Origin: Fluviicola sp.
GTDB taxonomy: Bacteria > Bacteroidota > Bacteroidia > Flavobacteriales_D > Crocinitomicaceae
Assembly: GCA_021300395.1 (NCBI GenBank)
Contig: JAJTEO010000001.1
Coordinates: 1 to 37,481, forward strand
Length of the DNA stretch: 37,481 nt
Direction: 5' to 3'
Both the position numbers and the translations under genes were made by a program. Position 1 is the first letter of the stretch. Each line of letters starts with the position of its first letter. This document shows, piece after piece, positions 15,464-22,035 of the stretch. The notes beneath the pieces were generated by a model. It searched no databases. It worked only from the letters and a program-made list of their open reading frames with translations, and was not told the DNA's origin.

Positions 15464-15471
15464 TACATTTG
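15464..15471 (+). promoter_or_regulatory. putative -7 promoter element TACATTTG
   Basis: Exact TAnnTTTG; overlaps the TTG at 15469 used in the ORF track, favouring the ATG at 15490 as the start. Confidence 0.45.
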
Positions 15472-15489
15472 TTTCAAACGAAAACGGAT

Positions 15490-16620
15490 ATGATACCAAG
15501 AATTCAATATACTTCAATCAAAGAAAAGATATTTAACAATCGTTTATTAATGCTTTCAGGACCAAGAGCTGTTGGCAAAAAAGAGATGGTTCAACAGATT
15601 TTAACGGAAGAAAATCAAGCTTTTTTAGAACTAAATGCAGCAAAGAAAAGTGTTAAGAAAATGTTTGATGAGGTGAATGAATTGGTCTTAAAAAACGTTT
15701 TTGGTGATCATCGTTTTGTGATTTTACAAGAGGCTCAATACGTCGATAAATTGCAATTAATTATTGAAGAAATTCTATCAGGAAATTTTGACGTTACGTT
15801 AATCATGACGTGTTAATACGAACCTGTAATGGATGAAATCTTAAAAGAAGTTTTACAATTACAAGAGTTGGAAGTTTACATAATGCCTCCATCTTTTTAT
15901 GAATTAGCACAACACAATGGTTTACCAGTTGAAGAAAGTTTGCTGGAAAAACGATTAATTTATGGGAATTATCCATCAGTAGTTTCTGATTTAGAATTTG
16001 CTGAACCTAAATTAAGAGAATTGGTTGAACAGGTTGTTTTTACCAATTTAGGTGTAACGGATCGAATTAACAAAGGTGATAAATTGATGCGAATGCTTCA
16101 AATTTTAGCTTTCGAAGTAGGGGATGCGATTTCATATAATGATATAGGTGAACGTTGTGGTTTAGACAATGAAACAGTTGAGCGTTATATTGATTTATTA
16201 GAAAAATCTTTTGTTTTAATCAAATTGCCTTCTTTCTTCAATAATCATCGTTACGAATTAAAGAAAAGTCACGCTATTTATTTTGTTGACAACGGAATTC
16301 GTAATGTTTTGATTAACAATTTTAACCCGATGCTTCTAAGAAATGATTGGGATCAAATTTGGAAAAATTGGATTATTTCTGAAAAAATTAAATGGAATCG
16401 TTTGAATAACAAACAAGTTGAAACTTATTTTTGGAAAACACATACCAAACAAATAATGGATTATATTGAAGTCATTGATGGAAAAGTATCTGCTTATAAA
16501 ACATCTTGGGAGAAACGTAAAAAATTAAAAATTCCAGCAAGTTTTACTGCTGCATATCCATTTGCAACAACACATGGATTAAACCGTTCGACATATTGGG
16601 GATTCCTAACAAAGAAATAA
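15490..16620 (+). pseudogene. AAA-type ATPase with DUF4143-like C-terminus, interrupted by one in-frame TAA at 15814-15816
   Basis: ORFs 15469-15816 and 15829-16620 share a reading frame and are separated by one TAA (...LIMTC*YEPVMDEILKEVLQLQELEVYIMPPSFYELAQ...). The joined product resembles AAA_14/DUF4143 ATPases. Confidence 0.8.
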
Positions 16621-16680: not shown

Positions 16681-19572
16681 TTACAATTTTCTTGCAACTT
16701 CTGTTTCTTCGAATGCTTCCATGATATCTCCGGCTTTAATATCGTTGAATTTGTCAACATTTAAACCACATTCATAACCATGTTTCACTTCTTTCACATC
16801 GTCTTTGAAACGTTTTAATGAACCAAGAGATCCTGTGTGAATAACAATTCCATCACGGATAATTCTAATTCTAGAACTACGTTTGAAAATACCTTCTGTT
16901 ACGAAACATCCAGCAATTGTTCCAACTTTCGTTATATCGAATGTTTCTCTAATTTCTGCAGAACCAGTGATTTTTTCTTCGATATCAGGAGATAACATTC
17001 CTTCCATCGCAGCTTTAATCTCATCGATTGCTTTGTAGATTACAGAGTAAAGACGAATATCAATTTCTTCTTGATCTGCTAATTTACGAGCACCAGCTGA
17101 AGGTCTAACTTGGAAACCAATAATGATTGCATCAGATGCAGAAGCTAAGTTCACATCAGCTTCAGAGATAGCTCCAACACCTTTGTGTACTACTTTCACT
17201 TGAATTTCATCCGTTGATAAGTTCAATAATGAAGCTGATAATGCCTCAATTGAACCATCCACGTCACCTTTAACAATTACGTTCAACTCTTTAAAGTCTC
17301 CGATTGCTAAACGACGTCCAATCTCATCCAATGTGATATGTTTCGTTGTTCTTAATCCTTGCTCTCTGTGTAATTGCTCACGTTTAGTTGCGATGTTTTT
17401 CGCTTCTTTCTCGTCATCCATTACATAGAATTTATCACCTGCACTTGGTGCGCCATTGATACCTAAGATAGAAACTGGTTTTGCTGGTTCAGCTATTTTC
17501 AAACTTACTCCATGTTCATCATGCATCGCTCTTACACGACCATAATTTCTACCAACTAATACGATATCTCCAACTCTTAAAGTACCTGCTTCAACAAGCA
17601 TGTTTGTAACATAACCTTTTCCTTTATCCAAAGTAGATTCGATTACAGTACCAACCGCATTTTTGTTTGGATTTGCTTTTAAGTTCAACATTTCAGCTTC
17701 TAAAAGAACTTTTTCTAATAAAGCATCGATGTTTAAGTTTTTCTTAGCTGAAATCTCTTGGCATTGGTATTTACCACCCCAATCTTCAACTAAGATATTC
17801 ATTTGAGAAAGTTGTTCTCTAATTCTTTCTGGATTTGCACCGTCTTTATCAATCTTATTGATTGCAAAAACCATTGGTACGTTAGCTGCTTGAGCGTGAG
17901 AGATTGCCTCTTTCGTTTGTGGCATCACATCATCATCTGCTGCAACAATGATAATCGCAACGTCAGTTACTTGAGCACCACGAGCACGCATCGCTGTAAA
18001 GGCTTCGTGACCAGGTGTATCTAAGAACGTCATCTTACGACCATCTTTCAACGTTAACGAGTAAGCTCCGATGTGCTGAGTAATACCTCCAGCTTCACCT
18101 TCTGTTACATTCGCATTACGTAATTTATCTAATAAAGATGTTTTACCATGATCTACATGTCCCATTACCGTAATAATTGGTGGACGTGAAATCAAATCTT
18201 CTTCTCTATCTTCAACTTGAGGAATCGCCTCTTGAATATCTGCACTTACGAATTCTGCTTCAAAACCGAATTCATCTGCTATAATTTGAATTGTCTCAGC
18301 ATCTAAACGTTGATTAATTGAAGCAAAAATACCTAAAGACATACAAGCTGAAATAACTTGTGTAGGTGATACATTCATCATTGTTGCTAACTCAGAAACA
18401 GTTACGAATTCTGTTAACTTCAAGATGCTTGCTTCTAATTCAGTTTGATCTAACTCATCCTGACGTCTTTGTGCATTAACATCACGTTTAACTTTTCTAT
18501 TTTTAGAAGCTTTAGATTTAGTTCCTTTATTTGATAACCTCGCTAAAGTATCTTTAATCTCTTTTTGGATGTCTCTTTCGTTAATTTCAGGTTTAACAAA
18601 TTTCCCTCTATTAGCGTTATTTTGACCTCCTTTATAATTTGGAGAAACTGGTCTGTTTTGACCTGGACCACCTTGACCTGCTGGTCTATTTTGTCCTGGT
18701 GCATTTCCACCTTGTGTCCCTGGCGCATTTGTCCCTGGTTGACCTGCTTTCGTAGGATCAATTTTCTTGATACGTTTACGTTTCTTACGGTCATTTTGAT
18801 TTTGACCTGGTGCACCCGGTTTTCCTGGAGCTGTTTTTGGTTTAGAAACTGGTAATTCAATTCTACCTAATACAGTTGGTCCAGTTAATACTTTTCGTTC
18901 AACACGAATTGTTTCAATTTCTTTTGGAACAACAGGTTCAGCTTCTTTCGGTTCTTCTTTTGGTTCAACTTTCGCTTCAACTTTTGGAGTAGGAGCTGGA
19001 GTTGGTTTTTGAGGAACGTAAGGTGCTTTTTTCGGTTTTTCAAATTTCTTTTTGTCTGGACGAGTTTTTGTATTTAGTTTATCTAAATCAATCTTTCCAA
19101 CAATTTGAACTTGAACATCACCTTCACCTAATGTATGAGGTTCTACTGTTTTTTCAGAAACAACTTCTGGTGTTTTCTCAACACTTTCTTTTACTTCATT
19201 CGCTGGTTCAATAGAAGGTGTTTCTTCTTTTTTAACAGCTTGATTAACTGGAGCAACACTTTTAATGCGTTCAATTACATCATGATCAACTTCATCTTCA
19301 TCTTCAACTCTAGGAGCTTCATTTGGTTTTGAATCACGAATAGAGATTGTCTCTCTTTTCTCTCTTTTAACAGAAGTCAATTTTGACTGCTCTTTTAAAG
19401 TCTGATCTGCAGCAAATTGTTTTTGTAGAATATCAAAATGTTCGCCTTCCAATTTTGTATTTGGATTTGCGTCAATTGTTACTCCTTTGGAATGCAAGAA
19501 TTCAACTAATGTAGAAACTCCTACATTTAATTCTCCTGCTGCTTTTCCTAATCTTATCGGTTTTCCCGCCAT
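16681..19572 (-). CDS. infB: translation initiation factor IF-2
   Basis: [52 protein letters not shown]; low-complexity Pro/Gly-rich N-terminal linker. Confidence 0.99.
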
Positions 19573-19633: not shown

Positions 19634-20872
19634 TTAATTGTCAAACTCAGCTCTTAGTATTCTAAATACTTCTTCGATTGTAACTTGCTCTAAATCTGTA
19701 CGTTTAACTAAGTCTTCAACACCTAATTCTAATACTGATTTTGCACTATCACAACCAACAGCTTTTAATTCGTCAATAATCCAGCTATCAATCTCATCAG
19801 CAAATTCTTCTAAATCAACATCATCGATATCAACTTCACCATCACGGTAAACATCTAATTCGTATCCAGTTAATTTACCTGCTAATTTAATATTGTGACC
19901 ACCACGACCAATTGCTAATGAAACTTGGTCTGGTTTTAAAAATACTTTTGCTCTTTTATCTTCTTCGTTGATTTCAACCGATGTAATTTTCGCTGGTGAA
20001 AGTGCGCGTTGAATAAATAATTGATTGTTGCTTGTGTAATTGATTACATCGATATTTTCGTTTTTCAACTCACGAACAATTCCGTGAATACGAGAACCTT
20101 TCATACCAACACATGCTCCTACTGGATCAATACGATCATCATAAGACTCAACTGCAACTTTCGCTCTTTCTCCTGGTTCACGAACGATACGTTTAATTGT
20201 AATCAATCCGTCGAATACTTCAGGAACTTCTAATTCAAATAATCTTTCTAAGAATTCAGGTGCTGTTCTAGATAAAATAATAACAGGGCTACTGTTACGC
20301 ATATCCACTTTCGCAACTACTGCACGAACAGCTTCACCTTTTTTGAAATAATCAGATGGAATTTGTTCTGATTTCGGTAACAATAATTCGTTTCCTTCAT
20401 CATCCAATACCATAATCTCTTTTTTCCATACTTGGTATACTTCTCCAGTAACGATTTCACCGATTCTTTCTTTGTATACTTTGTAAAGATTATCTTTCTC
20501 TAACTCCATGATTCTAGAAATCAAGTTTTGACGTAAAGAAAGAATGTTACGACGACCAAAGTCACCAAATGTAAACTCTTCTGTTACCTCTTCACCGATT
20601 TCAAAATCTGGCTCAATTTTCACTGCATCAGAATAAGCGATCTCCGTATTTTGATCTTCTACTTCTCCGTCAGCTACGATTTCTTTATTTACAAAGATTT
20701 GAACATCTCCTTTATCAATATTTACAATCACATCAATGTGCTCGTCTGTATTGAATTTTTTCTTCAACATTGCACGGAATACATCTTCCAAGACATGCTG
20801 CATTGTTGTTCTATCAATGCTTTTTAATTCTTTAAATTCCGAAAAAGATTCAACTAATTCAAGGCTATTCAT
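19634..20872 (-). CDS. nusA: transcription termination/antitermination protein NusA
   Basis: S1/KH architecture: IILSRTAPEFLERLFELEVPEVFDGLITIKRIVREPGERAKVAV...DPVGACVGMKGSRI...LAIGRGGHNIKLAGKLTGYELDV. Confidence 0.98.
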   Translation of the reverse strand: MNSLELVESFSEFKELKSIDRTTMQHVLEDVFRAMLKKKFNTDEHIDVIVNIDKGDVQIFVNKEIVADGEVEDQNTEIAYSDAVKIEPDFEIGEEVTEEFTFGDFGRRNILSLRQNLISRIMELEKDNLYKVYKERIGEIVTGEVYQVWKKEIMVLDDEGNELLLPKSEQIPSDYFKKGEAVRAVVAKVDMRNSSPVIILSRTAPEFLERLFELEVPEVFDGLITIKRIVREPGERAKVAVESYDDRIDPVGACVGMKGSRIHGIVRELKNENIDVINYTSNNQLFIQRALSPAKITSVEINEEDKRAKVFLKPDQVSLAIGRGGHNIKLAGKLTGYELDVYRDGEVDIDDVDLEEFADEIDSWIIDELKAVGCDSAKSVLELGVEDLVKRTDLEQVTIEEVFRILRAEFDN

Positions 20873-20878
20873 AAGTAC

Positions 20879-21355
20879 CTATTTAAATGAAATAACAATT
20901 TTTGTTTCTTTTATTTTATTCAAAGGTAGAACAAGTTGTTCCACAATGATTTCTTTTTTCTTTTTGCCTTCAGGAACTTCTGTTCGTGTTTGTTCAACAG
21001 TCAATTCAGTCGCTGTAGCAGCTTTCAAAACACCTTCCAATTTAGCTCCATCATTTAAAATGATTTCAACTTCTCTTTCGATGTTTTTAATGTATTGAGG
21101 CAAAACGCGCAAAGGTCTGTCGATTCCTGCAGATGAAACATGTAATTCAAAATCTTGCTCTTCTCTGTCTAAATTGTGTTCAACATTACGTGAAACAGAA
21201 ATGCAATCTTTTACAGAAACACCTCCTACATGTTTGTCGATCTCTACAGAAATTGAATTTGATTTTGAAATGGAAATATCTACAATAAACAACCCATTGT
21301 CTAACTCTGCAATGCGTTCGTTTACCAATTCCTCTACTAATTTTTTACTAATCAT
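20879..21355 (-). CDS. rimP: ribosome maturation factor RimP
   Basis: Conserved rimP-nusA-infB order; VEIDKHVGGVSVKDCISVSRNVEHNLDREEQDFELHVSSAGIDRPL is a RimP signature. Confidence 0.95.
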   Translation of the reverse strand: MISKKLVEELVNERIAELDNGLFIVDISISKSNSISVEIDKHVGGVSVKDCISVSRNVEHNLDREEQDFELHVSSAGIDRPLRVLPQYIKNIEREVEIILNDGAKLEGVLKAATATELTVEQTRTEVPEGKKKKEIIVEQLVLPLNKIKETKIVISFK

Positions 21356-21362
21356 GCCTTAT

Positions 21363-21387
21363 AAAAAGAGGGGACCTCAGTCCCCTC
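21363..21387 (-). terminator. terminator-like hairpin plus T5 in the rimP-nusA-infB leader (candidate attenuator)
   Basis: Minus strand: GAGGGGAC-tgag-GTCCCCTC-TTTTT-ataaggc-ATG(rimP). Perfect 8-bp GC-rich stem immediately followed by T5. Confidence 0.75.
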
Positions 21388-21415
21388 ATTTGTTCATTTC
21401 TAAATAACGATGGTG

Positions 21416-21445
21416 CAAATATACGATTTCTTTTTTAATTATCAA
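21416..21445 (-). promoter_or_regulatory. putative rimP operon promoter TTG-N19-TATATTTG
   Basis: Minus strand: TTG at 21445-21443, 19-nt spacer, TATATTTG at 21423-21416; matches the Bacteroidota -33/-7 consensus and spacing. Confidence 0.75.
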
Positions 21446-21555: not shown

Positions 21556-22035
21556 ATGGCAGAAGATTTACAAATTACTTCAATTACGAAAGCGGAAAAA
21601 TACAAGGAAATCATTCCTCAGATAAAAGCGTTAGTTGAAGGTGAATCAGATTTAATTGCAAATCTAGCAAACGTTACTGCCGCTTTGAAACAAACGTTTG
21701 ATTTCTTTTGGGTTGGGTTTTATATCGTAAAGAATGATGAATTGGTACTAGGTCCATTTCAAGGTCCAATCGCTTGTACTCGAATTAAAAAAGGAAAGGG
21801 TGTTTGTGGACATGTTTTTGAAACAAAGAATACTGCTCTTGTTCCAGATGTAGATGCATTTCCAGGTCATATTGCTTGTAGTTCCTTGTCGAAAAGTGAA
21901 ATAGTCGTACCTTTGTTGCGAAATAACGAAGTACTTGCTGTTTTGGATGTAGACAGTGATTCACTGAATGATTTTGATGAGATTGATGAATTGAATTTAA
22001 CAGCTTTATGCACATGGCTTTCAGATCGTTTTTAG
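21556..22035 (+). CDS. GAF domain protein, probable free methionine-(R)-sulfoxide reductase (fRMsr family)
   Basis: FWVGFYIVKNDELVLGPFQGPIACTRIKKGKGVCGHVF...VPDVDAFPGHIACSSLSKSEIVVPL keeps the three expected cysteines of fRMsr enzymes. Confidence 0.88.
   Translation: MAEDLQITSITKAEKYKEIIPQIKALVEGESDLIANLANVTAALKQTFDFFWVGFYIVKNDELVLGPFQGPIACTRIKKGKGVCGHVFETKNTALVPDVDAFPGHIACSSLSKSEIVVPLLRNNEVLAVLDVDSDSLNDFDEIDELNLTALCTWLSDRF

Follow-up and report, generated by a model that had tools for sequence, protein, structure and literature searches.

A putative promoter-proximal intrinsic terminator in the rimP-nusA-infB leader of Bacteroidota

What is a hairpin with the form of a terminator doing between the promoter and the first gene of an operon, and to which of the downstream genes does it belong? 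The question is raised by the rimP-nusA-infB locus of the window analysed here, a single stretch of 37,481 nt of Fluviicola sp. DNA. Transcription termination has been little studied in the phylum Bacteroidota, and NusA, encoded by the second gene of this operon, is a factor acting on intrinsic terminators.

Promoter, leader, hairpin, U-tract and rimP ATG were all read off the minus strand (Table 1). A sequence-only reading of this DNA had described a TTG-N19-TATATTTG promoter followed by a short leader, an intrinsic terminator 12 nt before the rimP ATG, a divergent neighbouring gene and two mini-ORFs; each of these is present, and the coordinates it gave were exact. The stem comprises 8 bp and is followed by TTTTT, ATAAGGC and the start codon, leaving 12 nt from the end of the stem and 7 nt from the end of the U-tract to the ATG. 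We infer a transcription start site at about 21411 (minus strand).

Table 1. Features of the rimP-nusA-infB locus, in coordinates of the window
Feature	Position	Strand	Basis or remark
Bacteroidota-type promoter TTG-N19-TATATTTG	21416..21445	-	sequence
TTG element of promoter	21445-21443	-	19-nt spacer to next box
TATATTTG promoter box	21423-21416	-	sequence
Putative 5' leader of rimP-nusA-infB transcript, ~56 nt	21356..21411	-	from promoter and rimP ATG
Predicted terminator stem-loop GAGGGGAC-tgag-GTCCCCTC	21368..21387	-	order-level leaders and covariation
U-tract TTTTT, interrupted distally (TTTTTATA)	21363..21367	-	T conservation
rimP ATG	21355-21353	-	
rimP, operon gene 1	20879..21355	-	PF02576 RimP_N, 37 bits vs cut-off 22.7
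nusA, operon gene 2, proposed effector	19634..20872	-	NusA_N, S1, KH domains (NusA_N-S1-KH-KH)
infB (IF-2), operon gene 3	16681..19572	-	IF-2 and GTP_EFTU domains
GAF-domain protein gene, divergent neighbour of rimP	21556-22035	+	domain match
Chance mini-ORFs MNK* and MRGLRSPLFIRHD*, outside mechanism	21348..21397	-	frequency as in shuffled leaders
MNK* mini-ORF	21397-21386	-	sequence
MRGLRSPLFIRHD* mini-ORF	21389-21348	-	sequence; spans stem

The RimP protein (20882-21355, minus strand) is 99-100% identical in several genomes of the genus that are counted as separate species (G003, G006, G009, G010). Elsewhere in the window (15469-16620, plus strand), two consecutive ORFs of 115 and 263 aa, the second starting 12 nt past the end of the first, resemble fragments of a single ATPase-like protein and are possibly a frameshifted gene.

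Hairpin, U-tract and promoter box among relatives

The 100 nt before start codons were scanned with a simple hairpin-plus-T-tract score at a threshold of at least 20. All 58 rimP leaders of 57 genomes of the order reached this threshold, compared with 0.3% of mononucleotide-shuffled sequences; conservation upstream of rimP had been named earlier as a check. Background rates were taken from 400 kb of one relative, where 115 genes had 100 nt or more upstream and 5 of them a comparable hairpin; for genes with a divergent neighbour the figure was 1 of 58. Within the window, the one positive among 25 genes was rimP itself. The leader hairpin is more than chance. The 58-nt leader folds with -16.5 kcal/mol (z -2.63); folding lacks significance when the stretch is extended to 106 nt (z -1.44).

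The pattern GAGGGG-N2-12-CCCCTCTTTT occurred about once per genome (63 matches in 59 genomes), with about 48 of the 63 just before RimP hits when the two lists were compared. The tighter pattern GGGGAC-N3-7-GTCCCCTCTTTTT was matched in a public genome collection; 80 loci in named genomes were given, and 73 of them have rimP directly downstream. Among the other seven, two end at the locus edge and one is next to rimP on the opposite strand. Matches include Flavobacterium, Capnocytophaga, Polaribacter, Mucilaginibacter and Fulvivirga. A covariance model run over 297 genomes of the phylum put rimP leaders at the top, but ordinary GC-rich terminators match lower down (L104, L106, L112-L118), so that by itself it lacks the specificity needed for a leader count.

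Stem covariation across relatives, likewise named earlier as a check, was assessed in a MAFFT alignment of 54 leaders. Over the eight stem pairs, 30 cells were changed on both sides, compared with 8.7 after shuffling (0/500), and the hairpin structure beat every slid version. Double changes were used as a better measure than the percentage paired, which leans towards the hairpin because the alignment was centred there. Downstream of the stem, T occupies positions 1-5 in 91-100% of leaders and position 6 in 36%; the U-tract is therefore conserved and stops at about five. Set against 27 ordinary 3' terminators from the genome of one relative, the leader U-tract is shorter (p=0.0015) and the stem weaker (mean dG -14.6 vs -16.3), yet GC-rich.

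All 55 distinct leaders have a TAnnTTTG box in the 75 nt before the hairpin, as against 3 of 54 control segments and 5% of shuffled sequences. Its median distance from the stem is 28 nt, so that the hairpin comes right after the expected start site. Pairing of the leader to the 5' arm was no better than in shuffled sequences (3.04 vs 3.27 bp), in keeping with the earlier remark that an antiterminator is not evident.

Reach across the phylum and genomes without rimP

The survey of the class covered 66 leaders from about 45 families, of which 64 keep the hairpin: 58 were recovered by the automatic scan and six by eye, the latter with longer loops, a bulge or a corrected start. A T-rich tail follows in all but a few of them. 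The hairpin is absent among these 66 leaders in two families, f93 and f100, whose loci (L243 and L237, respectively) carry rimP without a leader hairpin; their NusA proteins belong to the most divergent (44-47% identity). The gene is apparently leaderless in f93, where the promoter box directly adjoins the start codon.

Within class Bacteroidia the stem, GGGGAC/GTCCCC, varies unusually little in sequence. Outside the class, hairpin and T-tract are found in most leaders with a stem sequence that differs by lineage. Replacement stems are AAGTCCCGC/GCGGGACTT, AAAGTGGGG/CCCCACTTT, TCGCCC/GGGCGA and ATAGCCCG/CGGGCTAT, written more briefly as CCCGC/GCGGG, GTGGGG/CCCCAC, CGCCC/GGGCG and AGCCCG/CGGGCT. 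As the stem sequence is swapped wholesale while hairpin and U-tract stay, the conserved thing is the intrinsic terminator; a form that is kept while its sequence is exchanged is more in line with a terminator than with a fixed sequence to which a protein binds. Stem replacement between classes thereby separates a requirement, a hairpin and U-tract just after the promoter, from lineage habit. Some lineages outside the class (L068, L129, L143, L147, L155) have tandem terminator-like hairpins before rimP, the first with a G-rich and the second with a C-rich 5' arm, reminiscent of the gammaproteobacterial tandem in reversed order.

Lineages without rimP offer a natural test of whether the terminator goes with rimP or with the genes behind it. 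A RimP match was absent in 13 genomes (searched with the full-length RimP profile in class members and with RimP_N in the others), and the RimP C-terminal domain had 0 matches above cut-off in the same 13. In these genomes nusA is apparently the first gene of the operon and infB the next (L248 and L252-L260 among the loci). A promoter-like box, hairpin and T-tract stand directly before nusA clearly in 10 of them and weakly in 2, and are absent in 1. By family, the element was seen in 4/4 genomes of f74, in one of f79, in 4/4 of f43 (including one element whose loop is 10 nt and another whose stem is 4 bp) and in one of f57, whereas in f95 it was weak in two and unseen in one. The rimP-less label changes five times on the NusA tree, at least three of these changes being forced by well-supported branches; rimP has been lost at least three and probably five times in Bacteroidota.

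Judged by this comparison, the terminator element belongs to nusA-infB and not to rimP. That it usually stays with nusA-infB after rimP loss argues against RimP as a necessary sensor and points to NusA; as the element persists without rimP, RimP is not needed as a factor. NusA and IF-2 remain as candidate effectors, and NusA was chosen because it acts on intrinsic terminators and because such feedback has been reported elsewhere.

Proposed mechanism and alternatives

We consider it likely that the rimP-nusA-infB leader contains a promoter-proximal intrinsic terminator at which NusA stimulates premature termination, with no antiterminator involved. RNA polymerase would start about 24 nt before the hairpin, and the GC stem with its short, distally interrupted U-tract would make some of the complexes release an RNA of ~45-50 nt before rimP. 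The operon's own NusA would raise the fraction terminated, so that its level, together with those of RimP and IF-2, would be held at a set value; antiterminator, ligand and leader peptide would all be dispensable. We infer where transcription starts, that the hairpin ends it in these cells and that this depends on NusA; sequence alone does not single out NusA over IF-2 or over constitutive partial termination. The GC-richness of the stem and the absence of the hairpin from f93 and f100 count against the model. The attenuator that the sequence-only reading had proposed for the operon leader thus survives in part: a promoter-proximal intrinsic terminator without antiterminator, plausibly made stronger by NusA, is backed by covariation, phylum-wide conservation and the rimP-less genomes, and the nested-uORF part is dropped.

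All structural evidence would fit equally well if the terminator were constitutive and partial, with a fixed read-through fraction setting the operon level and no NusA feedback. However, a fixed level could come from promoter strength, and a terminator kept through stem replacement and rimP loss, in every case on an operon that encodes a termination factor, speaks for regulation, as does the NusA feedback reported in B. subtilis; we therefore regard purely constitutive termination as unlikely. Also unlikely is a scenario in which, within class Bacteroidia, the near-fixed GGGGAC...GTCCCC is itself recognised, presumably by the S1/KH domains of NusA, making the terminator NusA-specific, and other classes have swapped the recognition sequence as a whole, or in which the released ~50-nt leader RNA acts in trans.

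The constancy of GGGGAC/GTCCCC within the class and the nearness of the stem to the start codon would also suit an RNA-protein switch or translational operator, in which RimP, IF-2 or NusA binds the conserved stem and blocks translation while the U-tract is incidental. Conservation of T over five positions, replacement of the stem in other classes and a hairpin-to-start-codon distance ranging from 8 to 40 nt among relatives speak against such an operator, and RimP is ruled out as a necessary binder by the genomes without rimP; we give this explanation little credence. Coupling of the switch to translation initiation (IF-2) by a ribosome that translates MNK*/MRGLRSPLFIRHD* and melts the hairpin, as the sequence-only reading had envisaged, is highly improbable. 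Both mini-ORFs exist, MRGLRSPLFIRHD* spans the stem, and several leaders of the genus share an ATG placed two bases ahead of the stem, but ATG-initiated uORFs running through the hairpin occur in 16 of 55 leaders, where 15.7 +/- 3.3 are expected from shuffled leaders, vary within the genus and are missing from several of its leaders. Selection on uORFs was accordingly rejected, the observed number being at chance level. Although the hairpin has the form of an ordinary intrinsic terminator, the idea that it is the 3' terminator of an upstream gene, before rimP by accident, is refuted for this window, where the neighbour is divergent, and runs counter to the promoter box that closely precedes the hairpin in 55/55 relatives.

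Comparison with known leaders

The predicted NusA-responsive terminator is of a kind already known. The 'rimP-leader' attenuator (Naville & Gautheret 2010; PMC2965389) is described as a short G-rich/C-rich hairpin with a T-stretch, 4-130 nt before rimP and without antiterminator, present in most species and with NusA feedback proposed; the main text of that paper leaves Bacteroidota unmentioned. The present hairpin agrees in position, lying 12 nt upstream of rimP, with a hairpin before rimP in 58/58 relatives, and in the absence of leader-to-arm pairing beyond that of shuffled sequences. The published consensus is GGGc...gCCC (PMC2965389), whereas Bacteroidia have GGGGAC...GTCCCC; a G-rich 5' and a C-rich 3' arm are found here, with the exact 'c...g' after GGG in a minority (e.g. 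L040, L049, L052) and C-rich 5' arms in some other classes. Shortness of the leader is no novelty, because the 'rimP-leader' as published is itself a short hairpin and T-stretch without antiterminator, and the earlier description of rimP attenuators as the long gammaproteobacterial kind was in this respect incomplete (PMC2965389). New are the phylum-wide reach, the stem replacement and the persistence after rimP loss.

In B. subtilis, NusA-stimulated termination in the 5' leader is reported to autoregulate nusA (2025 review PMC12288461, on Mondal et al. 2016). A predicted intrinsic terminator likewise lies between promoter and nusA operon here, and directly before nusA where rimP is missing. 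The leader measures ~180 nt in B. subtilis (PMC2965389) and ~56 nt here, and NusA dependence, shown in B. subtilis according to the review (PMC12288461), is a prediction here. Factor-dependent terminators of B. subtilis tend to have weaker hairpins; the U-tract here is short and interrupted after five T, but the stem is GC-rich. The rimP-nusA-infB operon of S. agalactiae, a member of another phylum, has a very short leader with termination mapped 31 nt after the transcription start site and NusA feedback proposed (PMC4448216); its 3' ends are experimental, whereas our hairpin is known from sequence.

Rfam family RF01770 (rimP), a model of 102 positions whose cut-off is passed by one control genome, occupies the same operon position and had no match at the site; its best score in the genome was 28.1 bits, elsewhere, with a gathering cut-off of 47 bits. 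Across the window, the only Rfam family at gathering score was a tRNA, with nothing convincing at the site. For the same gene and within the same class, a structured stretch of transcribed 5' sequence ahead of rimP has been described in Flavobacterium psychrophilum (2021), conserved in other Flavobacteriaceae genera and without Rfam hits, to which the text of PMC9723704 assigns neither a mechanism nor the label of a nusA-operon terminator. In predicted form, the feedback known in Firmicutes and Gammaproteobacteria would extend to essentially the whole phylum.
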